Below are positions 1,300-32,860 of a stretch of 64,000 nt of DNA, piece by piece. Made by a program: the position numbers and the translations under genes. Position 1 is the first letter of the stretch; every line of letters begins with the position of its first letter. The notes beneath the pieces are model-generated. The model was not told where the DNA came from. It searched no databases and saw nothing but the letters and a program-made list of their open reading frames with translations. The DNA comes from Chrysophaeum taylorii (Eukaryota; Sar; Pelagophyceae; Pelagomonadales; Pelagomonadaceae): positions 62,001-126,000 of the forward strand of contig JAQMWT010000322.1 of the NCBI GenBank assembly GCA_029834535.1. Direction: 5' to 3'.

Positions 1300-1897
1300 T
1301 TAAAAGTTTGTTGGTTGTTGTAACGCGCGTTGGTCGACTTTGCGCGGTCGGCCCCGTCTGGCTCGACGTAATGGTGCACGTTTCGTATTGTCCGGGAACG
1401 GTTGTGTATGGTCCGGTGACGGTTGAGATATTGTTTCAGGGGTGATCAGTCCCGATAAGGCCGGCTCCTGAACATCAAAAACAGAAGACAAGGGAGCAAC
1501 AGCGGAAGATAAACGAGGGTCGTAATAAAATAAGTCAGGAAAACGAGAATCCACAAGAGACGGAGAAAGGGGTTGAGAGGACAGAGACTTAAGCAGAGCA
1601 AAATTTTCATCAAAAACAACATCAATCGAGGTGTGGATGACAGGACCGGTGGTGCGTTGAAGCAATATGCGATATCCAGGGCCTGCAGAGGGATACCCAA
1701 TGAAGATACCGGTTATAGCTTTGGTAGGCCATTTGTCGCCAGTAAGAATTGCAGCAGGACAGCCCCAAACACGAAGAAAATCAACACGGGGGAGAGTTTC
1801 ATGTAGCATTTCATATGGCGTCATATATCCAGGATTAGAGGCATTTGGCATGCGCTCAGAGATGAAGTCAGCCGTTTCCATGGCCCAACGCCAAAAT
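1300..1897 (-). pseudogene. C1 integrase C-terminal segment (frameshifted)
   Basis: This minus-strand frame continues the C1 integrase after a single-base frameshift near 1895. It shows the late-integrase signature of copia elements: residues around TPYEML and FLRVWGCPA, then KAITGIFIGYP, followed by a basic tail of the type RRARRGRPRK that could act as a nuclear signal. The stop at 1300 precedes a short spacer with a small tandem motif (GGAAACAGAAGCGAC, about 1244-1270). Confidence 0.8.
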
Positions 1898-4367: not shown

Positions 4368-4471
4368 GATAAACGATAACGAACCGAACACGTAGCAATG
4401 AACTGAAGCCGATGAGGAGTCGCCGTGAAGTCAAGCACAGGTTCGATCGAAACGAATGAGCACCTCTACCA

Positions 4472-4578: not shown

Positions 4579-4785
4579 TAGAGATAGAAAATCTGGATTA
4601 GGGTTAGTACCCCCTATTCTAGGGTTAGTTCCCTTAACTTTGCCATCCTTTGAATCAAGTTTGATTTAACAAAACGCTGTGATATTCACACCGGCTGTCC
4701 TCGTTTAGGAGACAGATTCGAGGACAGACTACCACTGTTCTCACGCTCTGCTGAAGGGTAACACAGTTGTGATTACTGTTCTCTA
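4579..4785 (+). repeat. 5' LTR of element A (207 bp)
   Basis: Starts TAGAGATAG and ends GTTCTCTA, giving perfect 6-bp inverted ends TAGAGA/TCTCTA instead of TG/CA. The same sequence recurs inverted at 28487-28680 and, more diverged, in the same orientation at 35014-35208. Internal marks shared by all three are the AGGGTTAG...CCCC block and CACTGTTCTC- or ACTGCC-type blocks. Confidence 0.82.
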
Positions 4786-4790
4786 GGTAT

Positions 4791-4870: not shown

Positions 4871-6473
4871 ATGCCAACCAATCAAGAACTCCAAAAGGAG
4901 ATGCGAGAACAAGAAGCTCGCATAGAAGCTCGCTTAGAAGCCAAGCATCAAAAAGAGATGCAAGACCAAGAAGCTCGCTGGATGGCTCAAATAAGCGCGT
5001 TGTCCGCCCAAGTGCAAGCATTGCAAGCACCACCACCTGCCGTCGCTGCTGCGGCTCCGCCTCCCACTCCGGCTCAGCAAGATCCCAATACTAAAGTTAA
5101 CACCTTTAATGACCCACCAAGCGCCGTCCTCAAGTCAATGGACAACGCGCAAGTCACACCCCAAATGCTTTCGTTTCGCGTGATGCAGTTGTTCGTCGAA
5201 CATCTGATGCCTGAAACAGGCATAACTCAGTATTTCCTACAAGGCTTCTACACGTGGGAATCCGTCTTGCGCGGATCTAATGATCTCGCTGACGCTCTCC
5301 TAAGCCACTGTATCGACGAATACGACAAGGACCCCGACCACCACTCTACCGCCGGGAACACGCAAGATGTCCAAGGCCGTTACGTCTACCACAAGGGTGT
5401 CTACCGCAAGTTCGGTAAGCACTTCCTGGAGAACGTCTACGAGCCAAAGCCCCAAGAACTCAAAGACAAAGACAAGGACCCGACCGATATGACAAAAGGC
5501 AAGTTATATCCGATAACCCAACCTCACCTCCAAGGAAAAGAAGCCGACTTCATCGTATATCTCCGCGAGACCGTACACCCCCTCTTTCGCCGTTTCCTAC
5601 ATGCCGGTAGCGACTCCGTCAAGCACCCAGCATACGACGAAATCGATGCACTCGGATCTTCCTATCCGATAGGACTCGAATTTGTGCTTCAAAATCGCCT
5701 AGCACTCGACAAGCACACGGGCCAGAACCACATCCACCATGCGCATTACGTCTATAATTCCTTTCTGGACACGCCGTTCAACCCAGAAATACATGAGCCT
5801 GCTCACTACATTGACTACATGCGCCATGTCCAGCAGCAACTGCGCCAGATAACAACCGATGCTTCTCTCCAACTTTCCGACGATAAGATTCTCGAGGAAG
5901 TCCACCACATACTTCGCTTTAAGTACCCTCCAAGTTTACTTGACTCCCGCGCCCGAACACACATCAAGGGCTTCGCGCGTCTTGCTAACTGTCTGCGCAC
6001 TCCCAACGACTCGCTGTTATTCGACGAAGACAAGGAAGCCATCCACCGCCTTCCTAAGCTCATCGCTCGCATCACCGTCATTTCCACGTTTGAGCGCAAC
6101 TTTTGGGCTCACCTCCAGCCTCACCCAACTCTCAAATTCAAGCCTTTGCGCTTCGTTACGGACTTTGCTCGTCTGCCAACAAAGGACAAAGACAACCCCG
6201 TTTTCGCTCCCGCCGTCATGGTCTCCACCTCACCGAAGACGATAAAAACACCTCTCCCTCTGAAGACGACACCCCACCGGACCCCGATGAAGACACCGAC
6301 CCCGTCGCTGTTTTTCTCACGGAGGCCAACCTTGATCAAGATGAAGACAATGACCTCGTTCACCAACTCCACGCCTACCGCAAAAAGCAAATTTCGCGGC
6401 ACCCCAAGAAGCCCCCTCCTAACAACAAGAAACCCCCAAATCCTCGCTCCCCGTCATATTACGACATCAATGA
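4871..6473 (+). pseudogene. Element A gag, 5' portion (split by gypsy1)
   Basis: The ATG at 4871 opens a protein with an N-terminal coiled coil of Glu/Gln/Lys-rich heptads (residues about 1-45), an Ala/Pro linker, then about 350 residues of globular sequence. I do not recognise it beyond its Gag position and length. No CCHC knuckle is visible. Near 6225 the likely frame shifts to one that is acidic and Pro-rich, and this second frame is the one that resumes after the gypsy1 insertion at 14015. The join is exact when the 5-bp duplication AATGA is discounted, which shows both halves belonged to one gene. Confidence 0.72.
6469..6473. repeat. Target-site duplication AATGA (left)
   Basis: AATGA sits immediately left of the gypsy1 LTR and again at 14010-14014 immediately right of the other LTR. 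Removing gypsy1 and one copy restores the gag frame of element A. Confidence 0.9.
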
Positions 6474-6807
6474 TATGGCGGCACAGAAAAAAAACTTCCC
6501 GACCCCCGGGTGACAAAGGGGGTACTCACCGACTCGTCCGAGACCTCACTGAACGAGGAAAACACGGACGCGGGGTCGGATACGCTCGCCACACACCTTG
6601 CTCACGCTCACCAAGCCTCTCAACAAGATGGAGAGATGGAATATGATAGCAAGGAAACTACAAGAATACAGCAAGAATGCTTCTCACAATTTGACACAAA
6701 AGAGAGGTGTGATGTCACTAAGAAGATCGGGAAAGGTGTCCCGTTGAACGGGTATCAAGCCTTGAGAGAGGGGGGGTAAGCCTTAGCGGTCAGGAGTTGC
6801 CGCCACA
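6474..6807 (-). repeat. 3' LTR of gypsy1 (334 bp)
   Basis: Minus-strand sequence starts TGTGGCGGC and ends GCCGCCATA, a 9-bp imperfect inverted end. It matches 13686-14009 with about eight mismatches and one roughly 10-bp insertion near 6690. Upstream on the minus strand is a purine-rich tract, CTAGGGGAGTCC (6808-6819), closely similar to the tract before the gypsy3 LTR at 50453. Confidence 0.92.
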
Positions 6808-6819
6808 GGACTCCCCTAG
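6808..6819 (-). promoter_or_regulatory. Polypurine tract of gypsy1
   Basis: On the minus strand CTAGGGGAGTCC directly precedes the 3' LTR start TGTGGCGG. gypsy3 has AGTAGGGGGCTCC in the same place before TGTGGCGG at 50453, so the site is conserved between the two families. Confidence 0.65.
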
Positions 6820-6973
6820 TGAGAACACGAGCTGCCCTCAGCGAGTCCGGCGAGAAGCACGAGCCTTGGCTGAATGAGCATCTCGAGAACGAATCTTCTT
6901 GTAGGCACGTTCAACGACAGGCCCAGGAACGCGTCCACCACGCAGAGTGAACTTAGGAATCAACACATCGATC

Positions 6974-7282
6974 TCATGCGGAGCGAAGTCGGTGACACAA
7001 GGAGTGGTACTGTTGTTGACCTTGGTCTACCTTGGTCTTGTCGGTGAAACTGCGACCGTCCACGTCCTTGTATACCGGCTTAAGCTTGCGGGTAGAGAGA
7101 TGTGAAGTAGGCTTGTAATAAGAAACCTTGTCATGGGGACCGAGATCAGCATAGAAATGCAGAGCGACTCGATCATTCACAAAACCATAGGGTTCATAAA
7201 CTTCAGCGACATAAATCTTCTTTCACCAATCGGACCGTTTATTATTCGGAATCCGAAAAATAACGAACTTACCATGCTTGTA
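6974..7282 (-). pseudogene. gypsy1 post-integrase module (conserved, unknown)
   Basis: After the integrase C-terminus the minus strand encodes HGKFVIFR, a short variable loop ending in W, then KIYVAEVYEPY, NDRVALHFYADLG and LKPVYKDVDG. The same module occurs in gypsy3 at 50000-50417 with matching residues KRIYVAEVYED, VALHYYTDLG and LRPEYKDRDG. A TGA at 7220-7222 interrupts it after the W here. The alternating hydrophobic, aromatic-rich pattern resembles SH3-barrel readers such as chromo, Tudor or BAH domains. That is inference only; no family match could be tested. Confidence 0.55.
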
Positions 7283-8168
7283 ATCATCCCGAAAGGTCTC
7301 CTTAGGCTTGGGCACAGCTCGATCGACCACTGGAGAAAGCATCACAGGGGTAATCTGACTGGCATGAACACAACGGCGTTCGGGAGGAGAATCAAGAGAC
7401 TCAATCCTGTAAGTGACCGGGGACAAGCGTTCCAAAAATAACGAATGGACCGCGCCATTCCGGTCGAAGCTTGTTCTGAAGAAAAGGGATGTAGAGCAGA
7501 ACATGTGAACTTTCTTCATACTCCACATCAACATGGTCCGCATTATAGGCGAGACGTTGTTTACGAAGAGCCTTCTCACGAGCTTCGTTCACCGTAGAGG
7601 TATAGAACTTCAGCCTCTCGCGAGTCTCTGCCACAACATCGGAGCGAGGTTTCGGCAGGCGGCGGACATCAAGATCCATGATCGTGTAATCGGCTGGCAA
7701 TAAAGGCTGCCGGTTAAGACGAAGCATGAAAGGTGAGATCTGAGTCCCCGGAATAAATTTACGATTGTAACAGAAAGCAATGTACTCCGCGAATTCGGGC
7801 CATTCCGTGATCTTGCGGTTTTGAAGGCACGCACGGAGGAAAGCCTTGATAAAGCGGTTGACCCTTTCCGCAGGATTAGCCTGAGCATGATACGGAATCG
7901 TGGTACTATACCGAACATTGAAAAGATGACAAAACTCTTCCATCAACTTGTTGACGAACTCTTTCCCATTGTCGGTACGAATCCTCTGAGGTAGATAACC
8001 TTTGAGTAATATATTCGCGACAAAAGACTCGAGGATTGACTCAGCAGTCTTATGGTGTAGTACGTCGAGAATCAAGAAATGAGAAAATGGATAAAAAAAA
8101 CGATGAGATATGTCTCGGGACCAGCACTGGGCAAAGGTCCAAACAAATCCATACAAAGGACGACACAA
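7223..8168 (-). pseudogene. gypsy1 integrase, catalytic and C-terminal part
   Basis: Minus-strand frame with the second catalytic Asp in RTDNGKEF and the catalytic Glu in NPAERVNRFI, spaced as in the DDE integrase core, then AYNADHVDV and WRGPFVI of the C-terminal domain. The first Asp is in the adjoining frame (8072-9406), so there is a frameshift near 8120. A second shift near 7420 moves the C-terminal domain to the frame ending at 7223. Confidence 0.85.
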
Positions 8169-9406
8169 TCACCATCATACACCGGTTGCTGAAGCAGACC
8201 TGCTCTCTTTGGTTCAGGCGTACGAGCTTTCTTGCACACTATGCAACCAGCAATGTAAGCACCCACCTCATTAGACATATGAGGCCACCAAAAACGTTCA
8301 AGTATCGACTGCACTGTACTTTGACGACCCATATGACCACCATTGAGAGGTGTGTCATGGTACAATCGGATGATGCGCGTCCGTAAAGTTCGGGGTGCGA
8401 CTATCATCGGGTGCAAGTCGGGTGCGGCACGGTAGAGAACTCCTTTCACCACTTGATAGCGATAATTGGCTCCGTACCGACGAAGAGAATGGCCCTGAGC
8501 CATGCGATAACGAATGTCCTCGCAAGTAGCATCAGTGATCTGCTCTTTGGCTATCTCTTCCAAAGTCAAATTATCCGGAATCTTGTCGATGTACTCTTGG
8601 TAATCATCGGCATCACGGAAAATACTAGGCTGGGTCTGAAGTCGTTGCTTCTGACGTTGTTTCGTAGCATGAGACGTGACCAATTGCATCGGATCATCGA
8701 GGTCTTCTTCCTCTTCCTCCACAGGCAACTCAGTCGTAACAAACGACAGAATGACATGGCACCCAGGTAAAGGTACTCCTTCATCATCAACAGAACGAGG
8801 GAGTTCTTGGCACACTAGATACGCGTGGTTCAAGGGTTCACCAAACTCGTCCGTCTCGATGACATGATCTATAGGATTGCGAGAGAGACAGTCAGGGATG
8901 CTCATTCCCGGCGACTTCCCTGGCTTGTAACCCAATTCAGGATCAAAATTGGCGAGCCGCATCGCCCATCGAGCCAACTGCCCAGACGAGTGCTTCGCCT
9001 TTCGTAAAAACGTCAAGTTGCGATGATCTGTTTCAAGGATCGTCTTGTGACCTTCAATATAAGAGCGGAAATGCTCAAGAGAAAGAATAACTGCCAGGAG
9101 CTCTAGCCGGCGAGGCTCATAGTTCCGCATCTCTTTCGGCACAGCTCGGCTCCAATACTCAACTACTCGTTCCTCTCGTGTCACCTTGCCGGTTTCGTCC
9201 TTGATTTCCACGAGCTGAAAAAGATACGCACCCAGACCATCCTTGGAAGCATCCGAGCGGATCTGAAAAGGAAGATCGTAGTCAGGATGATAAACTCCAC
9301 GAGAATCCACCAAAGCTTCGATGATCGTGTCCCATGCCTTTTGGCACTCAGGCGTCCACTCAAACTTAAACGCCTTCAAGACACAATCGCCTAAGCGGCT
9401 CCACAA
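8072..9406 (-). pseudogene. gypsy1 RT connection, RNase H and integrase N-terminus
   Basis: The 444-residue frame starts in the RT thumb-connection (FEWTPECQKAW). It contains the gypsy RNase H with FQIRSDASKDGLG, YWSRAVP, LELLAVILSLEHFR, TDHRNLTFL and DCLSRNP. An acidic linker leads to the integrase HHCC finger (H-D-T...H...CIVC) and the first catalytic Asp in CMDLFGPLP. It ends by frameshift before the rest of the integrase core. All key RNase H acidic residues are visible. Confidence 0.88.
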
Positions 9407-9900
9407 TCTTCGAATAATTCTTCACATATCGGCGGCAATAGTTGCTCATACCAATGAAAGATCGAATCTGGGTCTTCGGGGACGTATTGGGCAACGTACC
9501 GGGAATCGGCATCTGCTGCAACGCTTCTAACGTCTTGGGATTCGGCTTCAAGCCTTCCGGAGTCGAAATATGTCCCAAAACTCGATTTCATCCTTGAGGA
9601 GGTGGAACTTCGAAGTTCGTCCACTATATCCTCGCTGTGCTAAATGGCACAACACTTCAATCAAAACTTGTAAATGTCGATGGAGTTCATCCGATCCCAT
9701 CATAATATCGTCGACAAACGCGACCAAGTCCTTATACATCCATGTGGACAAATCGCTAGCCATCTGCTTACAAAAGAGAGCTCCTGCTGTTTTTACTCCT
9801 AGAGGCAAGCGCAAGAAACTATGGGCTCCAAGTGGACTAACCATCGTAACAGCGTCCTGAGCAGCGGCGTCCAACGTAAGTTATGATAACCCCATCGAAT
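9366..9900 (-). pseudogene. gypsy1 RT palm and thumb fragments
   Basis: Two overlapping frames continue the RT. One carries LGAHSFLRLPLGV and the catalytic FVDDIMMG (about 9700). The other carries GHISTPEGLKPNP and IRSFIGMSNYCRRY of the thumb (9366-9578). One-base shifts near 9850, 9580 and 9400 separate them from the neighbouring pieces. The YxDD motif reads FVDD, which is normal for gypsy elements. Confidence 0.82.
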
Positions 9901-12900
9901 ATCAATGCACGTCCGCCAACGGCGCATGGCAAGAAAAGCCAAAGCATCATCTTGACGAATATTCGGCCAACTGTCATTGACCAGCTGATCATTGAGCTGA
10001 CGCAAGTCAACGGCAGCACGAAAAGCATTCGACGTCCCGGCCTCGGCTCCCTTCTTAGGCAGCATCAGTACAGGAAATCCCCACGGAGAGTTCGCCGGTC
10101 GGATGACTCCATCGCGACACCACTCAGTGATCTGCTTTCTGAGACACTCGAGCTTTGCTGGCGTCAACCTATAAGGCGTCATCTTGATCGGTCGTGGGTT
10201 TGCGTCTTTAAAGCGTAAAGAAACCGGTGGCGAGTCCACGGGTCTCATAATCGGATCAAAGAAAGCCCACGCGTATTGCACGCAATGGCTCAACATCATC
10301 TTCGCATCATCATCCAGATGCGGGTTGTCGGGAATTCCTAGATCTCGAACAACCTTCTCAACTTCTTCCTTCGTCGGAATTACGACTTTCATCGCATCAT
10401 TGTCCTTGACGTGCTCGGGAATCTGCGGTAACGGTACACCGTCCGCATCGCGCGGTGCATCCTTCCATGGCACATCGAACTTTTCTTCGTATTTGAACCT
10501 CACCTCAGGGTGGCTCTTATTGATCTTTTCACCTTTGACGCGCACATTCGGCTCGCTCCTTACTTTCGGCTCCTGTTCAGGTTCAGGATCCGGCGGAACG
10601 TCCACTTTTGATTGTCGGGGGGGGGCAGCAGAAAAAGCATGAGCCGTCCCCGGCGCATCAGTTGGAAGCGGAAGCATAGGAACTTCTGGTAATCGTCGTT
10701 TCTCGTCCATCAAATCGGACATTCCCGTCAACTTCACCTCCATCGGCGCCGCTGTGGTCTGCTCTGCTGCGACCAAAACTGTATCGGCTAAAACATCGGC
10801 TAAAACGGCTAAAACGGTCTCGGCTAAAACGGTCTCGGGGGGCCCCGTAGGAAAAGAAGACGTCGTCCCCGACGTCAACTCAAAAGGTCTAACGTCATCA
10901 TCGTGAACTGCCCTGCAAGACATGCACATTGACGAATGGGGGGACACTGGAACCTGCGGCATGGGTTCGTCGGTCTCCAAATCTGAGTCTTCCCAATAGT
11001 GCGGAGAATCCCAAGTAGCATCTGACATTGCTTCCACATACGATGTAGAAGGCCACCGAACGATCCGAGCGTTGGTGGTATGTTGCTCCTGTTGCAAACG
11101 ATGGCTGCTCGTCACAGCGACATCGGCAACATCATCGGAGACTCGGGCAGGGCGCGCCGTCGGGTAAAAGACAACCCCCGACATTGGCGGCGCGTCGCAT
11201 AAAGATTGGAACGCGAAAGATGCGCTCGAATGTCCCGAACTATCCTGATATCTGCCTCCGTCATACTCGTCATCGTAATGTCGATGACGTCGGCGCCGGC
11301 GCGAATTGCGACTAGAGCTCCGGTGACGGCAAGGACTCGGGCTGTCTTGAGCAGTATGGGCTTTTCGATTAGGGCTCTGGCTTCGATGTCGGCGTGACGA
11401 TCGTCTAGAAGGTGATCGTCCGTCTCGCTGTCGTGTAGAAAACGACGTAGTATCCTTGATGCTTCTGACCTCGCTCACCATGGTCGCCATTGTGGTTCCA
11501 AGATCGGTGAGGGCCGTTTGAATTTCATTAGAAGGCTCCGATCCGTGCGTGGCGTTCGCATTAGATGCATCATCACGCTTTGCCCAATCGGACCGCGATA
11601 TGGGCTGCTTCTTCTGCTTACGAATTCTTTTCCACATCGCACAGTAGTAACGATCCGGATCGCGGTTGCAAACTACGCGATTTCCGTGTTCATCTTCATC
11701 ATGGGTGGTCCAGAAGAACCCACAGTGCGGGCACGTTCTCTTGCCCCACAAAAAAGGATCTCGCAAAATCAGCGGATCCGTATTCCCAGACGGTTTATCC
11801 GCATCTTGCTGGACTTGTTGATCGGAGGCCATAGCTCGACCTCCCCGCCCTCGCGGCGGTTTATTCGATTTCGGATTAGGTGGGCCTTGGTCCTTCTCCT
11901 CCTCCATCAACTTTCGTAAGTCGTTCTCGAGCCGCGTAATAAGCGCTACCATCGACTTAAAAGTCACGTAACTATCAGGATGTCCGCTCCTCATAGTCCG
12001 CACACGGGTCCTCAACTCCTTGGACGTCAATCCACTGATAAGCTGGTCGAGGATATCGACATCATCCATCGTGCGGCTGGACACGGAACAAAACTCCAAG
12101 GCTTCAGATTGGAATCGGGTACAGTACGTTTGGACGTGCCGCTCCCCAGACTTCTTCGGAACTGAAGCCTGGGTGACCTTCCGCAGCTTGTCAAGCAGCT
12201 CCTGCTGCGTGCGTGGAGGTCGGCAAGTCGATCTAAAATAATCCAAAATCTTGTCGCAATACGTCTTGTTAAGACGACGGATACGACGAACCGAGACTCC
12301 ATGCTCTTCATCGTCAATATCTAATTTCAAGTAAAACGACGGACCGTGTGGTAGCTCATCGCAGAGCTCCTCGTATTTCTGCAAGTGTTCCTCAAAAATT
12401 GGTGCAACGGTGTCCCGTAGATGCACAGGTAGTAAATAACGTAATTTCTCGACCGAGTAATGGTCATCTGCTAAAGTATGCATCATCGCCGCCGAATCCA
12501 AATTAAATTGCCGTTGGTCTCGGCCGTCGATGACGAGTTTGAAGGTATCAGGCTTCAAACTGGAAGTGGGTCGATGGGATCGGCTCAAGTTGCCCTTTTC
12601 GAAGGCGTTGGCAACCGTCTGCGATATTCCCCGCGATAATTCCCGTAAAATTTTCGTACTTTCATTCTCAATGTCCGCCCTACCCTCATTCTCCGTATCG
12701 ACTCGGGGCGGAGGTTCATTCCCCGTTTCAGTGTTCCTTTCCGGTTCAGGCGGCCTCACGGGCGTTTCCGGTTCGGGTCGACTCACGGGTCGTTCGCGGC
12801 TACTCTCCCGACGCGCACGTTCGGCTAACAATTCATCTCGTTCACGACGAAATCGTTCAACCTCTTCGCGTAGGGTCTTCGAAGTCTCGATCTCTTGCTG

Positions 12901-13254
12901 TAATGCATCATTGAGCATATCAACTTCTCGTCGAGCCGCTTCCTCTTTCGCTTCAGCCCTTTCACGAACAAAAAGCTCAGCTAATCGTTCATTTTCGCGA
13001 CGTCTCTGCTCGAGGTCTTCACGAAGTCGAATTCGGGCTGCAGATCCGCGCTCAATAGTAACACGCTCGCCACGATCCGGAGTCGTTGGACTCAACGGCG
13101 GAAAAATGGCAGCATCCGGAGGCACATCGGGGGGCATGTCAGCAACGTCGACTGCCTTGGCCTCTCTTAATTCACCTTCCTCGCGGCCTATCTCAGGGGC
13201 GGCGGGAAGAAGTGGAGGAGATTCTTCCTCACGCACGTCTGCGTTTATCTCCAT
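9799..13254 (-). CDS. gypsy1 Gag fused to RT N-terminal part
   Basis: An uninterrupted 1151-residue frame starts with ATG at 13254. Residues about 60-150 form a charged coiled coil. A capsid-like region follows (about 230-440). An unusual zinc-binding segment (about 500-545) reads CPHC, then H, C and C residues, in place of a CCHC knuckle. An Arg/Ser-rich basic stretch (about 615-680) comes next, then an acidic linker with short VLAxTVLA repeats. The RT begins with VRFKYEE...DVPW, RPVDSPPVSLRF and WGFPVLMLPKKGAE, plus AAVDLRQLN and CIDIRWGYH. No D(S/T)GA protease lies in the linker, where gypsy2 carries one. The RT homology is lost by frameshift near 9850. Confidence 0.87.
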   Translation of the reverse strand: MEINADVREEESPPLLPAAPEIGREEGELREAKAVDVADMPPDVPPDAAIFPPLSPTTPDRGERVTIERGSAARIRLREDLEQRRRENERLAELFVRERAEAKEEAARREVDMLNDALQQEIETSKTLREEVERFRRERDELLAERARRESSRERPVSRPEPETPVRPPEPERNTETGNEPPPRVDTENEGRADIENESTKILRELSRGISQTVANAFEKGNLSRSHRPTSSLKPDTFKLVIDGRDQRQFNLDSAAMMHTLADDHYSVEKLRYLLPVHLRDTVAPIFEEHLQKYEELCDELPHGPSFYLKLDIDDEEHGVSVRRIRRLNKTYCDKILDYFRSTCRPPRTQQELLDKLRKVTQASVPKKSGERHVQTYCTRFQSEALEFCSVSSRTMDDVDILDQLISGLTSKELRTRVRTMRSGHPDSYVTFKSMVALITRLENDLRKLMEEEKDQGPPNPKSNKPPRGRGGRAMASDQQVQQDADKPSGNTDPLILRDPFLWGKRTCPHCGFFWTTHDEDEHGNRVVCNRDPDRYYCAMWKRIRKQKKQPISRSDWAKRDDASNANATHGSEPSNEIQTALTDLGTTMATMVSEVRSIKDTTSFSTRQRDGRSPSRRSSRRHRSQSPNRKAHTAQDSPSPCRHRSSSRNSRRRRRHRHYDDEYDGGRYQDSSGHSSASFAFQSLCDAPPMSGVVFYPTARPARVSDDVADVAVTSSHRLQQEQHTTNARIVRWPSTSYVEAMSDATWDSPHYWEDSDLETDEPMPQVPVSPHSSMCMSCRAVHDDDVRPFELTSGTTSSFPTGPPETVLAETVLAVLADVLADTVLVAAEQTTAAPMEVKLTGMSDLMDEKRRLPEVPMLPLPTDAPGTAHAFSAAPPRQSKVDVPPDPEPEQEPKVRSEPNVRVKGEKINKSHPEVRFKYEEKFDVPWKDAPRDADGVPLPQIPEHVKDNDAMKVVIPTKEEVEKVVRDLGIPDNPHLDDDAKMMLSHCVQYAWAFFDPIMRPVDSPPVSLRFKDANPRPIKMTPYRLTPAKLECLRKQITEWCRDGVIRPANSPWGFPVLMLPKKGAEAGTSNAFRAAVDLRQLNDQLVNDSWPNIRQDDALAFLAMRRWRTCIDIRWGYHNLRWTPLLRTLLRWLVHLEPIVSCACL

Positions 13255-13685
13255 ACTGTATCAAATATCGATCAAGAATCTCGAAACACGTCCGGATCCG
13301 ATCACTCGAAGTAATTCACGTTGATTCCAACAACGCTATCTGTCGCTGTAAAAACAGCACTCGCGGAATTCCAAACCGCTGGCAATTCAAAAATGCCCGT
13401 GGGTAGCGATCCCACTCGCTAAACAGCTTCGACCGTTCAGCTATACCAAAATCAATTCCCGGGAGAATGCGCTGCGATTTCCAACTCGCACGCGTGTTCG
13501 TCGTCACTCGGATCGTACGAACACAAACAACGTTCGCGTATATTCTCAACGCAAACCGGTCCAATGGAACTCCGTGTGCTTGATCAGGGCGCACGTACAA
13601 ATCCGGACCTCGTAATACAACACGTACGGCAGCACTCGCTCGTCGGCGACCGATGTAGTCGCACGATCTCGTGTCCTCCACCACG
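13255..13685 (-). other. gypsy1 5' leader and primer-binding site
   Basis: Untranslated leader between the 5' LTR and the gag ATG. Two bases after the LTR end, the minus strand reads TGGTGGAGGACACGAG (about 13668-13683), a primer-site candidate beginning with TGG. The same leader, including the GCTTGATCAGGGCG block, recurs in gypsy2 at 28200-28345. The tRNA partner is not identified. Confidence 0.6.
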
Positions 13686-14009
13686 TATGGCGGCACAGAA
13701 AAAAAACTTCCCGACCCCCGGGTGACAAAGGGGGTACTCACCGACTCGTCCGAGACCTCACTGAACGAAGAAAACACGGACGCGGGGGCGGATACGCTCG
13801 CCACACACCTTGCTCACGCTCACCAAGCCTCTCAACAAGATGGAGAGATGGAATATGATAGCAAGGAAACTACAAGAATACAGCAAGAATGCTTCGCACA
13901 AAAGAGAGGTATGATGTCACTAAGAAGATCGCGAAAGGTGTCCCGTTGAACGGGTATCAAGCCTCGAGAGAGGGTGGGTAAGCCTTAGCGGTCAGGAGTT
14001 GCCGCTACA
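13686..14009 (-). repeat. 5' LTR of gypsy1 (324 bp)
   Basis: Partner of 6474-6807. On the minus strand it starts TGTAGCGGC and ends GCCGCCATA. It is flanked on the right by the AATGA target duplication. Confidence 0.92.
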
Positions 14010-14014
14010 AATGA
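14010..14014. repeat. Target-site duplication AATGA (right)
   Basis: Partner of the AATGA at 6469-6473, adjoining the 5' LTR of gypsy1. Confidence 0.9.
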
Positions 14015-14579
14015 CAGTCCTAAGCCCAAGGCCACCCCTGTCACCCCACCGAAGAACAAGCAACGTCCACGTGCTCCTCCAGTCACCACTGACAAACGCG
14101 AGCACCCGCATCTTCGCAAGGTCACCTTCCCCACACAACCTCATCCACCCAAACCATCTACTCCTGACCAGCGCTTCAAGGTCCCCCTTCGTGAAGTCCG
14201 TCCCAAGCTCCAAACCATACGGAATCTTAGCCAAGCCGGTCGCCAGCATACGTCCAGCTCCGAGCGAACGAACAAGCTAATCAACCTCATCACCACCATC
14301 TCCGACGAGATACTTCTCTCCGAAGCCGAAAACGATGCAGCAGAATTTCTCCAGATGTTAACGTCCGATCCCCAGGACCATCCACCTGATGAGGGCGAAG
14401 CCGAAACCGATGAACAAGACGACAAAGGACACCTCGGTTTCTATGACGACAACGGTCAGATAAACGTCTACGACGACACCATTCCCGAAACCAATGATGA
14501 AGATGACTCCGCCGAAGACTACGCACGACGTCACACTGGCTACATGCGTGCTCTCCACCAGAGTCGGCTTTTTCGCTGA
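14015..14579 (+). pseudogene. Element A gag, 3' portion
   Basis: Resumes the gag frame immediately after the AATGA duplication. It is basic and Pro-rich at first (KPKATP, PPKNKQRPR), then strongly acidic with DPQDHPPDE and YDDNGQIN, and ends with TGA at 14577-14579. The acidic end fits the C-terminus of a Gag. The frame joins that at 6103-6473 exactly once gypsy1 is removed. Confidence 0.75.
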
Positions 14580-15125
14580 TGGTTGCCGACGACGCCTGTG
14601 CCGTCAACCACATCTTACTCCATCAGGCACCAAACCTCAAGATGACGAATTTCCCGACCTCATCAACTATCTCACCCAGAGTCGCAGATTTTCTTTGTGC
14701 AACTTACACTCCAGGAAAGACCTCAAAGAAGACTAACTCGCTGCACGGATGCAATGGACCCGGCACTGAAACCTCATTGATTGACGGTGGCGCATCTTTT
14801 TGCTTTAAGCACAATACACAACTTTGTTCCTGAGACCACACGCCGGATTCCCGAACACACCATTCATATGGGACAAGGCACCCTCACCAGCCACTTCATC
14901 GGTGTTAAACCGTTGTATTTGCAGGCTGCAGGTCTCTCATCAAAGGATACCAAAGACTCAACCGGTTACGCTTTATATCTCGTATTTATGGTCGTCCCGC
15001 AATTCAGACAAGGTCTTCAAGTTATCGCAACATCTCAGCTCAAAGCTCTGCATGTACAAGCCACGAAGCCACAGATCCGCCACTGCCCCACGAGCCATAT
15101 CTCTATGCACTTCTAAAGTCCTCAA
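14580..15125 (+). pseudogene. Element A aspartic protease region (frameshifted)
   Basis: The frame through 14783 reads TSLIDGGASFCFKHNTQL. LIDGGAS corresponds to the D(S/T)GA active site of copia retropepsins (usually LDSGAS), with Gly in the second position. The rest of the domain continues in neighbouring frames: FVPETTRRI, HIMGQG-like and LYLVFMVV (14830-15000). At least two small shifts occur before the methyltransferase frame starts near 15116. Confidence 0.6.
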
Positions 15126-15199
15126 CCTTCGACCCGCACGATTATAAGACACTTCTAGGAAAAACCGCCGTCGTATACGCCACTCGCAAACCAAACGGC

Positions 15200-16030
15200 T
15201 TGTTGTCCCTACCGTCCCATCCAAAGCAAACATTCGCAACTGTGCTCAGTTTCCACGCAAGAAAACGAATGTCACTCAAGGATGAGATTGCACACATCAC
15301 ACAGCATGTCGCCAAGACACGCTCAAAATCGCACATGCTTGATTTCGCCAAGTTACAGAATCATTCCCTGTATCTAAACGAACTGCTCAACCTCCAACAT
15401 ACTGTCGTCCACTACGCCTTCAATGGCTCCGCAGACCTCTCTGTGCAAACACAACCCCCTCCGCTCAAAACAGCCATTATTGCAGGTGGACTTCACCAGG
15501 AAGGTTTCGACACTTTTCGCAAACGATTCGACAAACGCCTTACTGTCGTGGTCACCTGCGAAATGAACGATATAATGCGCACCCGTGCGCAACAACTCTT
15601 TCCGCACGCTCAGCACTATGCGGACCTAAGGAAACTCAATGCCGCACTCCAAACCGGCAAAATACGACAACCTCCATTCGACTTAGCAGTTTTTACATTG
15701 CCCTGTCAACATCTGAGTGTAATGAAACAAGACGACGGCAATGCCACTCCGGTCACCGCCGACCTTTTCGTCCAAGAACAAATCCGCTTCGTTCGTTGCA
15801 CGCTCCCGACCTACGCCATTGTCGAGAACGTACCTCCCAACCCCCGAACTCACCACGAGTATGCCCAACTCGCTAAAGGTTATCAGCGCTTAGGCTACTT
15901 CCGCCACTCCGGTGTATACAATGCCTCTGCTTTTGGTGATGTCATCATTGCAAGACACGCTATCTCGCTGTGTATGCCCGACACCCGCTCACCGGCTACA
16001 ACCTCGAAAAAACCGCCTCTACTTGGTTAA
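15200..16030 (+). CDS. Cytosine-C5 DNA methyltransferase, motifs I-VIII (in element A)
   Basis: Open frame containing the catalytic half of a C5 DNA methyltransferase. Motif I-like AIIAGGLHQEGF is at 15472-15507, followed by a motif II-like strand VVVTCEMND. Motif IV reads LPCQHLS with the nucleophile Cys codon at 15704-15706. Motif VI reads VENVPP, with Glu at 15824-15826, and FGDVIIAR is at the expected place of motif VIII. Spacing between Cys and ENV (about 40 residues) fits the family. The enzyme transfers methyl from S-adenosylmethionine to C5 of cytosine. The upstream 90 residues are an unassigned linker from the protease. A one-base shift near 15965 moves the continuation into the next frame. 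Confidence 0.82.
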   Translation: MLSLPSHPKQTFATVLSFHARKRMSLKDEIAHITQHVAKTRSKSHMLDFAKLQNHSLYLNELLNLQHTVVHYAFNGSADLSVQTQPPPLKTAIIAGGLHQEGFDTFRKRFDKRLTVVVTCEMNDIMRTRAQQLFPHAQHYADLRKLNAALQTGKIRQPPFDLAVFTLPCQHLSVMKQDDGNATPVTADLFVQEQIRFVRCTLPTYAIVENVPPNPRTHHEYAQLAKGYQRLGYFRHSGVYNASAFGDVIIARHAISLCMPDTRSPATTSKKPPLLG

Positions 16031-16530
16031 CCTCGCCTCCGAGCATGGTTCCTCTCCTGGACCCCAGTCACACCATCCCTGACGATCTCTGGATCGCCAA
16101 ACCCGCCCTTCGTGGTACAGTGCCCCGCTCCACCTTGGACTACTACCAGCACAAGGCCACCTACTCCTACAAGCCCGCCAACGCCTCGAAACTCTCGATT
16201 TCCGAGAATGCCCGCATCTGCCAAATGCTCGCACGCCTCACCGAGCCCTTCACGGATCTCGGTCTAGACGCCGACGGCACCTCCTACGTCACAATGGAGT
16301 CCATTTCCTACCTCCTGGTTTTCACATTGCTGCACAACCATTTATCGCAACACCCAACTCTCGCCGCTTGGAACACCCTCCGCTGTTTTCATGCCTCTGA
16401 GTCTCAATGTGCTTACCATTTGGATGGAGCCATCACCGGCACCGCCGCTACTGCCGTCGCAGGTGGCTACTTCTCGCGCGCCTCCCTAACACTACATTCC
16501 AGGCCTCACACTACATTCCAGGCCCCCTCC
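15970..16530 (+). CDS. Methyltransferase target-recognition region (frameshifted)
   Basis: Continuation in the next frame: AVYARHPLTGY, MVPLLDPSHTIPDDLWIAKP and STLDYYQHK. The LLDP...PDDLWI pattern resembles the start of the target-recognition domain in bacterial-type C5 methyltransferases. The region is variable in the family and sets sequence specificity, which cannot be read here. A local duplication of ACACTACATTCCAGGCC near 16490-16520 accompanies the shift back to the original frame near 16530. Confidence 0.6.
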
Positions 16531-16534
16531 GATA

Positions 16535-19006
16535 TTGGACCGTCCCCATCAACCCGCAGTCTTCTCCCCAACGCACTTCTTTTCCCTGGATGTTCCCAAG
16601 GGCACCGCCTTTCTGGTCGTCGCCTACACCACCTCCTTGGCCGCCGCTCACAGCTGCTCGCGCCCGTCCACTTGGGTCCACTATATGAATCGTTCGCATC
16701 CTGGCTTTGCCGCGATCGACTCACGAGGGCGAATTGCTCTCGATGACCCCAAGGGACTCATTATGTCCAAAGCACGTCCCACTTACGCGGACTACGTCGG
16801 CCACATCGGAGACACGCTTCAGAAAAGCACTAAATGTTACTCGGTCACTGGCTCGTTCCCAACCAACACGAGCTACTCCAACGCCTTGCTGCTGATCTCT
16901 CCAGACCACATCCGCTATGCGACCCTCAACGAAATCGCAAAGTTTGGACACCACTCGGACCCGGAACTGCTCCGACTGTTCCAACAGCACCCGCCGTACT
17001 TCGCGTTTAAGGCACTGGCCAACGCCGTCCCGCACCACATGCTGCAGGCAAAGTACAGCGCTGTCCTCGCACTCCACGAATCGCACCACCACGTGAACCG
17101 TCACGTCGAATGGGCCACGATACGCCATGGCATCCCCAGCCCCGGAGACATCAACCAGGTTGCAGAATTCTTCTCGGCCATCTCCAGCCGTCTCTTAGCA
17201 GAGGAAGACCTGAACCTCACCTCCCTCTTCAATGCTGTTGCAGATGCTCACCATGATGCGATCCGCAAATCAAGCAAATCGACAAACCTCGAGACGCTTC
17301 TTGCCGAGGCAACCGTCGCCAAAATCCGAGTCGACAAGCGACCCAGCCCCCCCAGCGCTTCGACTGCTGCTCTGCCTCCCTTGCACAAGCCCGGCACCAG
17401 TCAGAACGTTAAAAGAGTGCTTCTGGTCACTCGCTGGCACCGCATACACCACCAGCAACCAGAGATTCTGCGCCGCACGATTGCCGCTAATGTAACGAGT
17501 CTTCGCCCAGGTGATGATCGGTATCTGCAAGACTGCAGCGAATGCAAGCGCTGTCAATCGCATGTCAGCTTCCGTCACAACAGCACTTCCTGGTCACCTG
17601 ATGAACAAGCCTATGCTCCTGGCCAACACCTCCACATGGATGTATCATACCCGAGCATCAGCAAGTGCTACGGCGGATTTCGCTACATCATGCACTTCGT
17701 GTGTATTATCTCAGCACACAAGTGGGTCTATTTCCTGCGGAAATTAGACGCACAGGATGTTCTGGCCGGCATCCTCTATGTGGTCAATGTGATTAAGGTC
17801 GAATTCGATGTCAGTGTGAAGATCATATCGTCCGATGCATTCTCAACTTTCCGCTCTGAAGTTTTCTACCCCCTCAACGTGCAACTTGGCATCCAGTTTC
17901 AAATCCTTGGTCGCCACCTCCACCAGAGGAAGTTTGCTGAAAACAATATCAAGGAAAACACCCGAGGCACCGTAGTTCGTCTCCTCGGCCTTCGTAGTGT
18001 ACGCATCGAAGGAAAGTCTATTACCGCCGAGTATTATCATCCATTTACTCTCCTGCATAAGATCCAAGCCGACAACCAGCGCTCTCATGGACTGCCCTCG
18101 CGCACAAACATGACATGCACCGTTCCCCGGCGTATCATGTCACCCATGGCACCGCTCTTGAAGCTTCTCCCCTTTGGCGAACCTGTCACTTTTGTCTACC
18201 CTCAAAGTCACAAGCTGGAACCCTCCAGCGTCTCCGCCTCCTACTTTCATATTAACAACTATCTCCCGAACCTCCCCGGAACGGACCGATTTATCCGAGA
18301 TGTTCACAGCTCTATCTTGCTTGTACATCAGGGGCGATATGGAAAAATCGTCACCTCTAATGACTTTCATGTTGACGCAGACATGCCAGTCAAGCGTAAC
18401 AAGGAGCTCGAACGGATAAAAGCACTCGCACAGATCCCAACAGAGGCACGACAAGAGGACCCGCTACCAGCTATAAGCGAACAGCAATTGCCGGAAGTTA
18501 GACAGGAATCGCAAAATGAGGGCGAGACTCACGATGACGAGCACGATGATAAACCTAGCGATGACGACGAACACAAAGAACTAGATCCAACTCCCGCTGC
18601 TGATTCAAGTCCCGTCAGCGACGAGACACCTGAACAGGATTTTTCGTTATTCAACCGGACACCTCCGCCGGATGGTAGCATTCCGATGCCCAAACGAAAA
18701 GATCGCCTAGAGGTTGTTCTCGACGATTCAGGTTTTACCCCAGTTCTCGTGCATCGCAACCAGAGCGATAAGCTCAAGACAGATCTCAAGGACCAACGTG
18801 GATTTCGCATCCCTACGGATCAACTATATACCACTCATCTGTATTGGTTGACCACCTTGATAACGACAATTCTGTTCTCGAGAACTATGTGTGCCACGAC
18901 GAACTGTCACCGGCAGAGTACTATGCGCGTCAATGGAACCAAGAACTCTGTTGTATGGGTTCCTCTCTTTTGCGGGACATCTCCGCGCATCAACACTACC
19001 ACCTAG
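16535..19006 (+). CDS. Methyltransferase motifs IX-X joined to copia integrase
   Basis: The frame is open for over 800 codons. First come the last methyltransferase motifs: IRYATLNEIAKF (motif IX type, 16910) and KALANAVPHHM (motif X type, usually GNAVP, about 17010-17040). The integrase HHCC finger follows with H-R-I-H-H and CSECKRC (17425-17550). Then the DDE core: Asp in HMDVSYP (codon 17639), Asp in SSDAFS (17834) and Glu in FAENNIKEN (17939). All three catalytic residues are present. An acidic linker ends in RT, after a shift near 18840. A methyltransferase directly ahead of the integrase in one frame makes a host-gene origin for this copy unlikely. Confidence 0.8.
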   Translation: MDRPHQPAVFSPTHFFSLDVPKGTAFLVVAYTTSLAAAHSCSRPSTWVHYMNRSHPGFAAIDSRGRIALDDPKGLIMSKARPTYADYVGHIGDTLQKSTKCYSVTGSFPTNTSYSNALLLISPDHIRYATLNEIAKFGHHSDPELLRLFQQHPPYFAFKALANAVPHHMLQAKYSAVLALHESHHHVNRHVEWATIRHGIPSPGDINQVAEFFSAISSRLLAEEDLNLTSLFNAVADAHHDAIRKSSKSTNLETLLAEATVAKIRVDKRPSPPSASTAALPPLHKPGTSQNVKRVLLVTRWHRIHHQQPEILRRTIAANVTSLRPGDDRYLQDCSECKRCQSHVSFRHNSTSWSPDEQAYAPGQHLHMDVSYPSISKCYGGFRYIMHFVCIISAHKWVYFLRKLDAQDVLAGILYVVNVIKVEFDVSVKIISSDAFSTFRSEVFYPLNVQLGIQFQILGRHLHQRKFAENNIKENTRGTVVRLLGLRSVRIEGKSITAEYYHPFTLLHKIQADNQRSHGLPSRTNMTCTVPRRIMSPMAPLLKLLPFGEPVTFVYPQSHKLEPSSVSASYFHINNYLPNLPGTDRFIRDVHSSILLVHQGRYGKIVTSNDFHVDADMPVKRNKELERIKALAQIPTEARQEDPLPAISEQQLPEVRQESQNEGETHDDEHDDKPSDDDEHKELDPTPAADSSPVSDETPEQDFSLFNRTPPPDGSIPMPKRKDRLEVVLDDSGFTPVLVHRNQSDKLKTDLKDQRGFRIPTDQLYTTHLYWLTTLITTILFSRTMCATTNCHRQSTMRVNGTKNSVVWVPLFCGTSPRINTTT

Positions 19007-20643
19007 CTTCTCGTCACAGGCATGCCTTCATGCATGATTCTGGCGAACTCGGACACCTCTTCCTAAGTCAAAGTGATCCGAATCAAGATATTCTACTAGA
19101 AGTCCTGGACAATGATCTGCAGTACATCGATCACGTCGTGTTACAGCTCGTGACCACTGAAGATACTGTCTATGAGCCCGAAAAGATTGTCGAACTAAAA
19201 GGACTCAGCGAAGAAGATAAGTTAAAGCATATCGTTTCGATTCGCAAAGAAATTGAAGGATTGTGCTCCAATGGTGTCTTCAAGCTTGAGCCTTTACCGC
19301 CAGACCGTTCGTCTATCTCGACGAGCCTCGTGCTGAAGATCAAGTATTTTGCTGACGGCACTCCAGACCGCTATAAAGTTCGTCTAGTCGCCCGAGGTTT
19401 CTTGGCACGTGTAGGCATTGACTTTTATGCCACATCCTCCCCGACCGCAGTGCTTGCCACCAACCGGCTACTGCTCGCCATCGCTGTGAAGCACAAGCTC
19501 CCGGTCGCGCACGCGGACATTCCTCAGGCATTCATCCAATCGGCACTCGATCGCCCAGTATGGATTGACTTCCCTCGAGGAATACGTGTCTCGCAAAATC
19601 TTATCCAGCAGATACAGAACAACCATCCAGAGTCCAAGCTCGCTCTCCGGCTCGTCAAGGCTCTCTATGGCCTCAAACAGCCAGCTTTGTTGTGGAATAT
19701 CAAACTCGACTCGTTTCTTCGACAACATGAGTTCGAACGCTCACAAGTCGACACTTGCCTCTATATCAATTAGGATCGATCTATCAACAAATTGGTTTTA
19801 CTATCCGTTTCAGTCGATGACCTATTGATCACTGGTACCAACACTGCCAAAATTACGTCTCGTCGCACTGCTCTGGAGAAGGAATATGGCAAAGGTACGT
19901 GGCATGACAACATCAGATCCTTTCTTGGCATCGATGTTCACTACAATGTCTCCGCTGGTCATCTCACTATGAATGTAGCAGCGAAGATCACCAAGATGCC
20001 TGCTGAGCATAAGCTCAACCTACATAGTCTAGACGTCCCCTATTCGGACATCCTCACCCAAAAATCTTCTACTAAGCTTCTCTCAGACTTGGCTACTACC
20101 TTAGACGTATTACGCCAAAACTTTCCTTACTACTGTGGCACTAGCACTTACTTGTCTATCACATGTCGGCCTGATATCACCACTTTGTGCAACAAATGCT
20201 GCAAGGGGATGCACAACCCCGACCAAACCCGCCTTCTGCACTTATATGTTCTATTTCGCTACTTAAAGGGCACTCCGAATGATTCACTCGACTATTCATC
20301 CGACAGCCCCTCTATTACCCCCTTTATTCAGCATCTGATCAACCGATATCCTGAACTGCATCATCTTCGTTCACCTATTATTTGTTTTACTGATGCAAGT
20401 TTTGCTGATCGTTCTGACCCTCGCTTGCGATCCAATTCTGGTGCATGTATCTTCGTCTTTGGCAATCTCGTATTTTGGTCTAGCAAACGACAAACTCTTA
20501 CTGCCAAAAGCACCATGGAAGCTGAACTCATCGCCGCCAGCGCAGCCGCCGATGAATGTCACTGGTTTTACAAGCTTTTCTCCTCTCACCCTTATCTGTT
20601 TTCGTGTGATCAAGCTCACTCACGCTCCCCCCCTGCTTATTGA
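18844..20643 (+). pseudogene. Element A reverse transcriptase and RNase H
   Basis: Copia-type RT: YKVRLVARGFLARVGIDF, HADIPQAFIQSAL, KALYGLKQP, an in-frame TAG at 19771-19773, then the catalytic VSVDDLLITG and a shortened palm and thumb. RNase H follows with CFTDASFADRSD, NSGACIFVFG and SKRQTLTAKSTMEAE (about 20385-20540). The frame before and after the TAG is identical, so a single nonsense change separates two otherwise open halves. A shift near 20620 moves the RNase H end to another frame. Confidence 0.87.
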
Positions 20644-20971
20644 TAACGCTCGCGCATTACATGTCGCTAATCATCCTAAAGTCAGTGCTCCTTCTCGTGA
20701 TATCAATTTACGAGAATTTCGCATTCGTGACTACCAAGCTAATTCGATCATTAGACCTCTCTGGTGTCCTACTCACTACCAGGTCGCTGATCATTTTTCA
20801 AAGCTCCTACCACGCAATTTATTTCACAAGTTCAAAAACTCCTACGGTGTTCACTCCACCTTATCCTCACCACCATCACATCAAGTTACTCTTTCAGATA
20901 CTCTTCCACCGTACGACTCTGTCCAGAACACTCTCTACATTCTTGTCGATGGTAAGGCGCTTCCTGCTTAG
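20620..20971 (+). pseudogene. Element A RNase H C-terminal tail
   Basis: Continues the copia RNase H after a frameshift: LLIDNARALHVANHP, NLREFRIRDY, WCPTHYQVADHFSKLLP and a stop at 20969-20971. QVADHFSKLLP corresponds to the conserved copia ending (usually NxADxLTKxL). Confidence 0.78.
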
Positions 20972-28345: not shown

Positions 28346-28486
28346 TATGGCTCGTATCCTCCACCATTTGTGGCGGCTCTAAAACACGTTCCCGGCCCGT
28401 GGACACTGGGGGTACTCACCAACACGCCGGAGATCCCTACACTCAAGGTAGGCTCGGGCTTGGGGTCGGCTACTCGTCGCCACAAC
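28346..28486 (-). repeat. Truncated 5' LTR of gypsy2
   Basis: On the plus strand it reads TATGGCTCG, then GGGGGTACTCACCAAC and GCTACTCGTCGCCACA. This aligns block by block with the gypsy1 LTR (TATGGCGGC..., GGGGGTACTCACCGAC, CGCTCGCCACACA). It is cut after about 140 bp by the inverted A-type LTR at 28487. Confidence 0.68.
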
Positions 28487-28680
28487 TAGAGAACAGTAAC
28501 CACAACTGTGTTACCCTTCAGCAGAGCGTGAGAACAGTGGTAGTATGTCCTCGAATCTGTCTCCTAAACGAGGACAGCCGGTGTGAATAACACAGCGTTT
28601 TCTTAAATCAAAGGGCGGCAAAGTTAAGGGAACTAACCCTAAAATAGGGGGTACTAACCCCAGTTCAGATTTTCTATCTC
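28487..28680 (-). repeat. Inverted A-type LTR
   Basis: Reverse complement of the element A LTR at 4579-4785. It starts TAGAGAACAG, contains GAGGACAGCCGGTGTGAATA and ends TTTTCTATCTC. It lacks only the terminal two bases. It is opposite in orientation to both element A and element B, so it cannot be a normal LTR of either. Confidence 0.85.
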
Positions 28681-28682
28681 AC

Positions 28683-29047
28683 CGACGCCGCCCTGGCTTT
28701 CGCCACTGCCCAGCTCGCCATCCAAGCCGACGAACTGGTCTCCACCCAAGCCGAACACCATCTCACCCACAGCTCAAGGCACTCGAAACTGCCCACGCTG
28801 ACATCCGCAGCTCCCACCTTGAAACCAACGCCGCCGTTCAAACCATTCTTACCTCATTGGATGCCACTCACCCCACCCAAGATGCTGCATCGCATCTTTC
28901 ACCTCCTTCCCCCATCCACAACCAACCTTCATCCCCTTCCGAACCAACCTCCACTGCCTCTCCCCCGATTCTCCCCGAGCATCATCACCACCTCCACGGA
29001 TGCCCCGGACCTGGTTCTCCTGGTTCACCACCCACTCCGTCTCTCTA
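28683..29047 (+). pseudogene. Element B Gag-like coiled-coil frame
   Basis: Reading from 28683 the frame gives Ala/Gln/Glu-rich heptads (ATAQLAIQADELVSTQAEHH). After one likely shift near 28765 comes TLKALETAHADI-type sequence, then DATHPTQDAAS and a Pro/Ser-rich tail to the stop at 29046-29048. The layout of coiled coil then Pro-rich tail resembles the N-terminus of element A Gag, but the sequences do not align by eye. Confidence 0.4.
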
Positions 29048-29548
29048 ATCTCCACATCCCGCCATCTCTGGCCCCTCCTCCTCTGCCAAATCACTCTTCG
29101 CTTCTCTGGCACCCCCTGAACCCCTTTGCACCCGCTCGCCTTATCAGCCACCTGGTTCATTCCAACTCGACCACATCCCGCGTCCGAGTTGCGAGGGCGT
29201 ACATCCAACACCGGCGACCGTACCCCTACCACCAGCGACGATCACCACGTGCAAAGTCCCACCAAGAATCAAGACCACCCACATCAAGAGTCGACAAGTT
29301 CCGAACTATCAAACGACAGCTCTTTGCCAGATGGTCATGCTCACCATCATGCTGCCAAGACATGCATAAGGGCTCCTTCTCTCTTCGGGCACAACGGCCC
29401 AGGAAGCAATCTTGTCGAAGAAACACCAAGCAATCTCGTTCCCACTTTCGACAAGTAAAAGACCAAGACACCTCGAGATGTTCCCGAGTATTATGCCTAC
29501 ATCGACTATGGCAACCACACCCAAGAATCAAAAGCTCCGCCGTATTCC

Positions 29549-30274
29549 ATGCACCGGGCGCAAGAGCCGCAGGCCACTGACAACATCCCCTCTGATTCAG
29601 TCCCCTGGTATGATGCATACAGCGAAGAAGCAAGACCCACTTCACTAGTCTCGAAGATGGTCTCCTCGACCATTCCAGATCACCCGCCTGATCCAAGCAC
29701 CATCAATGCCCCTGCAATGCCGTATCCACAAGGACAAGACACGCTGTCAACGGTCCCACGGTCGCCATACTCGCAGGCACTCACCGCACCTGCAGGTATC
29801 AGCTCAGATTCACAAGGCATTCCCGCCTTATTCGATATCTCTCGATCAGCAGCTCCCGATCACTTCGAAGCTGGTCCCGCCTCGCCGCCTCCCCTCCTCG
29901 AAGACAGGCACGCACTGCCGCTCACCGGCGCTTGCTGCTGCACCCACCATCCACCTTCTCGGTCGGATGCACTGGATGACACTGCTCAGCAGGTTGCATG
30001 GACCCATATACGACCACCATGTAACGATTTGATGGATGTCTTCGCACGAGCACCAGTCGCAGCACCTGATCACTCGCTCCCTGACTTTCGGTCAAAGGAC
30101 CCACTCCTTTTTGACTGCCGATCCTTATGTCTCACCGCGACCAAGCCTCTGGAAAGCTTTCCCCATGGCTGCAGTAACAGACACAGATTTCGAGAGTTCC
30201 GAACGACCCGATCAGCCGCAAACTATGCACAATTCCATTGCGACCACTTCGGTCCTGTGTGTCCCCTTGCATAG
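29549..30274 (+). pseudogene. Element B frame, unknown product
   Basis: The frame is already open upstream of 29549 (EYYAYIDYGNHT, about 29489). It reads Pro/Ser/Asp-rich sequence such as VPWYDAYSEEARP. The Tyr/Asp-rich part loosely resembles the acidic Gag C-terminus of element A. No domain recognised. Confidence 0.3.
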
Positions 30275-32714: not shown

Positions 32715-32860
32715 TTCAAGGCATGTACCGAAGTCCCTCTTTCTAAGGACCTCAGTCACACGCCAAGACCTGATGAGTATTCGTCGTTCCTCCCCGCTTC
32801 AACGCGACTCCCGACGACCAAATCCCCGACGATTTGTGATGACAATAAGTTCCGTCATCA

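Follow-up and report, generated by a model that had tools for sequence, protein, structure and literature searches.

Does a Ty1/copia retrotransposon of Chrysophaeum taylorii carry its own cytosine-C5 DNA methyltransferase (C5-MTase, here MTase), and if so, is the enzyme a stray insertion in one decayed copy or a regular part of the element? The question is raised by a 64,000-nucleotide stretch of contig C322 (the window, meaning the whole stretch analysed), in which a sequence-only reading had placed MTase motifs inside a copia polyprotein, and we have followed it through the 70.8 Mb genome of 697 contigs to which the window belongs. Motif and profile comparisons confirm that positions 15473-17114 encode a predicted C5-MTase domain between the protease and the integrase of a Ty1/copia polyprotein. 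Intact copies occur elsewhere in the genome, the domain is under purifying selection, and a second, diverged copia family has a homologue in the same place.

A methyltransferase domain between protease and integrase

All parts of the domain lie on the forward strand, and the motifs have the order and positions read from the sequence alone: AIIAGG (motif I) starts at 15473, LPCQHLS (motif IV) at 15698 with its cysteine codon at 15704-15706, VENV (motif VI) at 15821, and ALANAVP (motifs IX-X) at 17012. The claim that they sit within copia is likewise borne out, with the start of pol and an aspartic protease (ETSLIDGGAS at 14768), then a linker, at 14540-15400, and an integrase at 17438-18300 (end approximate), recognized from its HHCC motif (HRIHHQQ, 17438) and DDE core (HMDVSYP, from 17633) and collinear with the integrase of the sister family described below. 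In the window the MTase is spread over three forward frames, changing near 15952 and 16505. Motifs I-VI and the approach to motif VIII (15473-15952) are in frame 14909-16030; motif VIII and a target-recognition-like part (15952-16506) are in frame 15940-16746 and are 94.6% identical by tblastn to pol residues 469-653 of an intact copy, L009; and the remainder of that part with motifs IX-X (16505-17114; tblastn 93%) is in frame 16490-19006, which, as had been noticed, continues into the integrase.

Matching the three frames against PF00145, as the sequence-only reading had proposed, gave a divided answer: the first frame matches (E 4.6e-8; 33.3 bits, above the cut-off of 22), as does the L009 pol (32.1 bits, same cut-off), and the other two frames gave no PF00145 match. 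A nine-row alignment of element MTases compared by hhalign with seven PF00145-type proteins (three from phages and three from plasmids, each drawn from ten listed hits, and a DNMT2-like protein of the same genome) gave 97.0% probability and E 8.8e-11; the match covers motifs II-VIII and brings PCQ and ENV into register. The element integrase, as a negative control, gave 0.2% and E 0.37. DNA-methyltransferase families of PHROGs match three copies (9.7e-8 to 7.7e-12), and a profile search of the PDB returned a single entry (E 0.035), which is a cytosine-specific methyltransferase. Searched by tblastn against 50,697 phage records, the domain found 17 with E no higher than 1, the lowest being 6e-6; eight of the ten listed are annotated, each as methyltransferase or methylase, and some of these records are near-duplicates. 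No outside relative was confirmed in IMG/VR or prokaryote contigs by scans that required short exact peptide patterns.

Retrotransposon-borne DNA methyltransferases as such are already known, and DIRS elements, which carry an adenine methyltransferase, likewise join a retroelement to a methyltransferase, but differ in the base modified, in the family of the enzyme and in how they integrate. A 2018 Nature Communications study by de Mendoza et al. is said to have described such DNMTs in dinoflagellates (Symbiodinium) and a charophyte (Klebsormidium); those elements reportedly have, as here, a C5-MTase captured in a retrotransposon coding region, although the host here seems different. The present elements add the protease-MTase-integrase order in copia, a second diverged family, and measures of selection.

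Intact copies, selection and the age of the capture

Unbroken copies, for which the sequence-only reading had proposed a search, were found. Locus L009 encodes a gag of 578 aa and a single 1952-aa pol frame with protease, MTase, integrase and reverse transcriptase (RT), followed by one stop before the presumed RNase H. Its pol matches RVT_2 at 1.6e-38; rve is only sub-threshold (E 0.0061, at 1016-1110 of the intact frame), and HHCC and DDE-type motifs precede the RT. The MTase frame is stop-free at nine loci besides the window copy, L009 among them, seven across the whole 550-residue query and two across 519-533 residues. In the alignment of these nine, which excludes copies with stops (e.g. 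L010, L016 and L026), PCQ (the motif IV catalytic Cys) and ENV (the motif VI Glu) are identical and in order in every row, and one row, L011, is gapped and locally out of register over a stretch past motif VIII. Our assignment of motifs IX-X rests on ALANAV and its conservation between copies of the main family (family A).

The element is present in many copies. The integrase-side frame of the window, motifs IX-X included, has at least 65 matches in the genome (best 54 of 1149 candidates scored), and the L009 RT at least 131 (best 127 of 1475 candidates scored), those listed comprising 130 at 68-100% identity and one at 43%. A genome search with PF00145 gave at least 57 matches (best 123 of 474 candidates scored). 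Thirty of these loci were cut out: two proved to be other genes, and the remaining 28 all match the MTase of the element, their best pieces at 57-100%; 23 of the other 27 listed overlap element-MTase rows of a separate genome MTase search, three lie beside family A places (on C216, C104 and C670), and one (on C23) is unplaced. The 57 listed matches thus include two host-like genes and at least 51 that match the element MTase. Whether the segment is absent from, or a later insertion in, paralogues is answered in part: all 12 of the 9.9-kb stretches fetched carry the MTase, whole or in part, but they were picked by a query containing motifs IX-X, and MTase-free copies were not sought. One copy, L019, lacks about 167 MTase residues (seen in the overlapping locus L044).

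In other respects these are ordinary Ty1/copia elements, with an RVT_2-type RT, the order protease-integrase-RT, long terminal repeats (LTRs) and a 5-bp target-site duplication; what sets them apart is an additional MTase of about 550 aa. The LTRs are about 197 bp long, starting TAGAGA and ending TCTCTA. Both outer flanks were examined in L014, which has the duplication TCTCC and an LTR pair 95.5% alike, and in L016, which has no visible duplication. Pol overlaps gag by 40 nt in the -1 frame, and CTTTTTC within the overlap is likely the -1 frameshift site; in a scan of 43 sequences, two of them DNMT genes, 37 of the 39 rows listed have CTTTTTC (33 distinct places, 31 with it; the exceptions are L010 and L029). 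An MTase-free copia in the window itself, at 1-4430 on the reverse strand, has the DTGA of its protease at aa 456, followed about 170 aa later by gag_pre-integrs (629-680) with no MTase in between, whereas about 880 aa separate the protease from HHCC in the MTase-bearing element.

The MTase is under purifying selection like the integrase and RT. Ratios of non-synonymous to synonymous change (dN/dS) were calculated as mean dN over mean dS from pairwise Nei-Gojobori comparisons of stop-free copies among 19 input loci, keeping copies that had no stop in the segment and covered at least 85% of its length, and pairs whose dS exceeded 0.02; the same filter was used for integrase and RT, and because the copies are related the pairs are not independent. 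The ratio is 0.17 for the MTase (10 copies, 45 pairs), with 0.14 for motifs I-VIII (16 copies), 0.18 for the middle part (12) and 0.21 for motifs IX-X (19), compared with 0.15 for protease and linker (9 copies), 0.12 for the integrase (10) and 0.14 for the RT (4 copies, 6 pairs).

The lone 43% RT match, on C560, belongs to a sister copia family. Its stretch before the integrase matches the L009 protease-MTase region at 24% identity (2e-21), and by tblastn the protease-MTase, motifs IX-X (30%, 7.8e-6), integrase and RT of one sister copy, itself decayed, are collinear with L009, albeit in different frames. The diverged MTase thus occupies the same place in this family (L053, 1390-3690 on the reverse strand; L057; L052), and hhalign gives it 68.8% and E 4.5e-5. 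A genome MTase search returned at least 130 rows (best 127 of 520 scored). Among the rows listed, 30 fit the sister MTase (39-100%); they are spread over 16 contigs and consist mainly of fragments, L053 and L057 being the two that were read. With a diverged homologue in the same position in the sister family, the capture is older than either family.

A third MTase-like lineage (SPCT, EMT or EIT, GDYQARERW) is represented by two closely similar copies, at L055 (589-1500, reverse strand) and L056 (468-1382, forward strand). For L056 the match to the sister MTase has E 2e-9 and that to PF00145 no better than 0.059; L055 matches the sister MTase at 1.1e-6 in the genome search and gave neither a row in a second comparison nor a PF00145 match; the family A MTase matches neither copy. 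We do not assign this lineage to copia, since no copia match was found in its neighbourhood. Columns that do not vary across six rows drawn from these three lineages include G15, E39, D79, C87, E127, G164 and R171, so that cofactor and catalytic residues are retained across families: the Gly of motif I, Glu of motif II, Cys of motif IV, Glu of motif VI and Arg of motif VIII. The catalytic Cys and Glu are kept at identities of 16-24%.

The two host-like PF00145 genes differ from the element enzymes. One encodes a 360-aa protein that stands alone, with the motif PPCQPHTRQ, and the other a 2086-aa protein (L054, 1-7501; G000:C621:15900-23400) with matches to PF00145 (9.1e-17) and SNF2 (3.3e-13) and TSC at motif IV; from these signatures, and the SNF2 match for the latter, we take them to be DNMT2-like and DNMT5-like. 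They share the PF00145 catalytic domain with the element, yet the L009 pol has no SNF2 match in Pfam and the element MTase groups with neither. The phylogeny proposed in the sequence-only reading was realized in part, with a DNMT5-like row included and the element MTases falling apart from it. In this 16-row, midpoint-rooted tree, built without DNMT1/3/4/6 or published retrotransposon enzymes and with long-branched DNMT2 and DNMT5 rows, the three lineages form one clade (100/99) separate from the DNMT2-like, DNMT5-like and six phage or plasmid rows. An origin of the MTase from either host gene is not supported by it.

The window copy and its surroundings

The sequence-only reading did not extend to the upstream LTR, gag, or the LTR element nested within gag at 6474-14009. 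By comparison with L009, the window copy runs from its 5' LTR at 4579-4787 (forward; blastn 88-89% to the L009 and L014 LTRs) to about 21009, where similarity ends; no 3' LTR was found in place. Gag is in two forward parts, at 5411-6473 (tblastn with L009 gag, 76-89%) and at 14010-14576 (tblastn), the second ending at the conserved, likely gag/pol frameshift site CTTTTTCGCTGA. Between them lies a Ty3/gypsy-like element on the reverse strand, foreign to the copia element, with 334-bp terminal repeats (6474-6807 and 13686-14009; 94.6% identity) and RT_RNaseH and Integrase_H2C2 domains of Ty3/gypsy type in 8075-9421; the flanking L009 matches overlap by 5 bp, as expected of a target-site duplication. 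Downstream of the integrase, the RT is at 18829-20073 (forward; RVT_2 7.7e-28, match at 18772-19770) and the putative RNase H part of pol at 20077-20968 (forward; tblastn 90-92% to L009 8456-9343). The latter is assigned from its position and continuity with the RT, and a Pfam search of the corresponding L009 part gave no RNase H match. Some 348 bp of pol are gone just before the RT (a blastn gap at L009 6859-7206), and this gap and the frame changes are ordinary decay of one copy.

The neighbouring MTase-free copia at 1-4430 carries gag_pre-integrs and RVT_2, and the genome as a whole is crowded with copia RTs (at least 150 matches, best 150 of 1670 candidates scored), many of those listed being in long open frames and scoring above the MTase-bearing family. 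At 28486-28680 lies a reverse-oriented LTR of family A; past it, within 28486-35050, are C-rich forward frames of another repeat family with 93.8% DNA identity to L058 over 3.7 kb. A weak MTase match at 30306-30810 (E 6-7e-6) lacks catalytic motifs and was not counted. Elsewhere in the genome, contig C697 has rbcL, encoding a 488-aa, red-type form ID-like Rubisco whose best PDB matches are diatom entries; this points to a red-plastid alga, most likely an ochrophyte stramenopile. A search of the genome with an 18S pattern gave no match.

What the captured enzyme may do

We favour, with confidence about evenly divided, an account in which the MTase has been a regular domain of the copia polyprotein since before the two families split and marks the element's own complementary DNA (cDNA). 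Within the particle or pre-integration complex, the polyprotein would be cleaved or would work as a fusion; the MTase would methylate the cDNA no later than the moment of integration, probably at CG; each new copy would arrive already marked; and a host maintenance enzyme of DNMT5 type could copy the mark onward. The host's possession of a DNMT5-like gene is in keeping with a role on DNA, as is, weakly, the base composition of the elements, in which a lower CpG and higher TpG/CpA are weakly suggestive of methylation. Eight loci spanning element copies have CpG observed/expected of 0.97-1.04 and TpG/CpA of 1.11-1.13, compared with 1.38-1.46 and 0.63-0.70 in the GC-rich end of the window (52-64 kb, taken as genic) and the DNMT5 locus.

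Several observations weigh against this account. Base composition and coding confound the contrast in CpG, and CpG sites show no clear enrichment of C/T differences between copies (CG 0.135, CT 0.141, CC 0.107, CA 0.066), nor of those on the G/A side (CG 0.103, AG 0.152, GG 0.084, TG 0.071). The profiles used back motifs II-VIII and none recognizes motifs IX-X, the C-terminal half; motifs VIII and X are separated by an unusually long stretch; a single MTase sequence has no PDB match; and a single-sequence structure prediction of window motifs I-VIII was discarded, its predicted local distance difference test score (pLDDT) being 33.5. In the sister family, ECT and EMT take the places of PCQ and ENV, respectively, and its MTase has no PF00145 match. 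The last of these features would suit a domain that is now non-catalytic, for example a module that binds DNA or selects targets for the integrase; we think this rather unlikely, as PCQ and ENV do not vary in the main family, the Cys and Glu persist between lineages even at their low identity, and a phage protein annotated as PF00145 likewise has LECTHFS at motif IV.

The enzyme might instead be active on other targets, whether host loci, competing elements, or RNA such as the packaged RNA or transfer RNA (tRNA) primer. Selection indicates that activity or fold matters and is silent as to the substrate, and C5-MTases of DNMT2 type act on tRNA; yet fusion within pol would put the MTase with the cDNA, and the element enzyme neither groups with the host DNMT2-like protein nor has PPCQPHTRQ, and such targets seem to us improbable to a similar degree. 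Far less probable is a recent chance insertion or assembly artefact, with host MTase DNA lying inside one decayed copia copy. The breakage of the window copy into three frames might suggest this, but nearly all of the PF00145 loci cut out match the element MTase, single intact frames exist, and the diverged sister family has the MTase in place; given these paralogues and the sister family, we reject it.

If the MTase does mark the element's own cDNA, a wider role can be imagined. The two PF00145 genes identified besides those of the elements look like DNMT5 and DNMT2, and no gene that could be called DNMT1- or DNMT3-like is among the PF00145 matches listed for the genome; lineages with DNMT5 only may need an outside source of de novo methylation. 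A speculative extension, which we consider doubtful, is that the retrotransposons are this genome's source of de novo cytosine methylation, marking new copies at birth, with the host DNMT5-like enzyme serving only for maintenance. On that reading the element would belong to the host epigenetic system as a built-in part, and would be more than a parasite hiding from silencing. In a multi-copy selfish element, selection maintains an enzyme of the very class that silences such elements, and this family could show how they use or evade host silencing.

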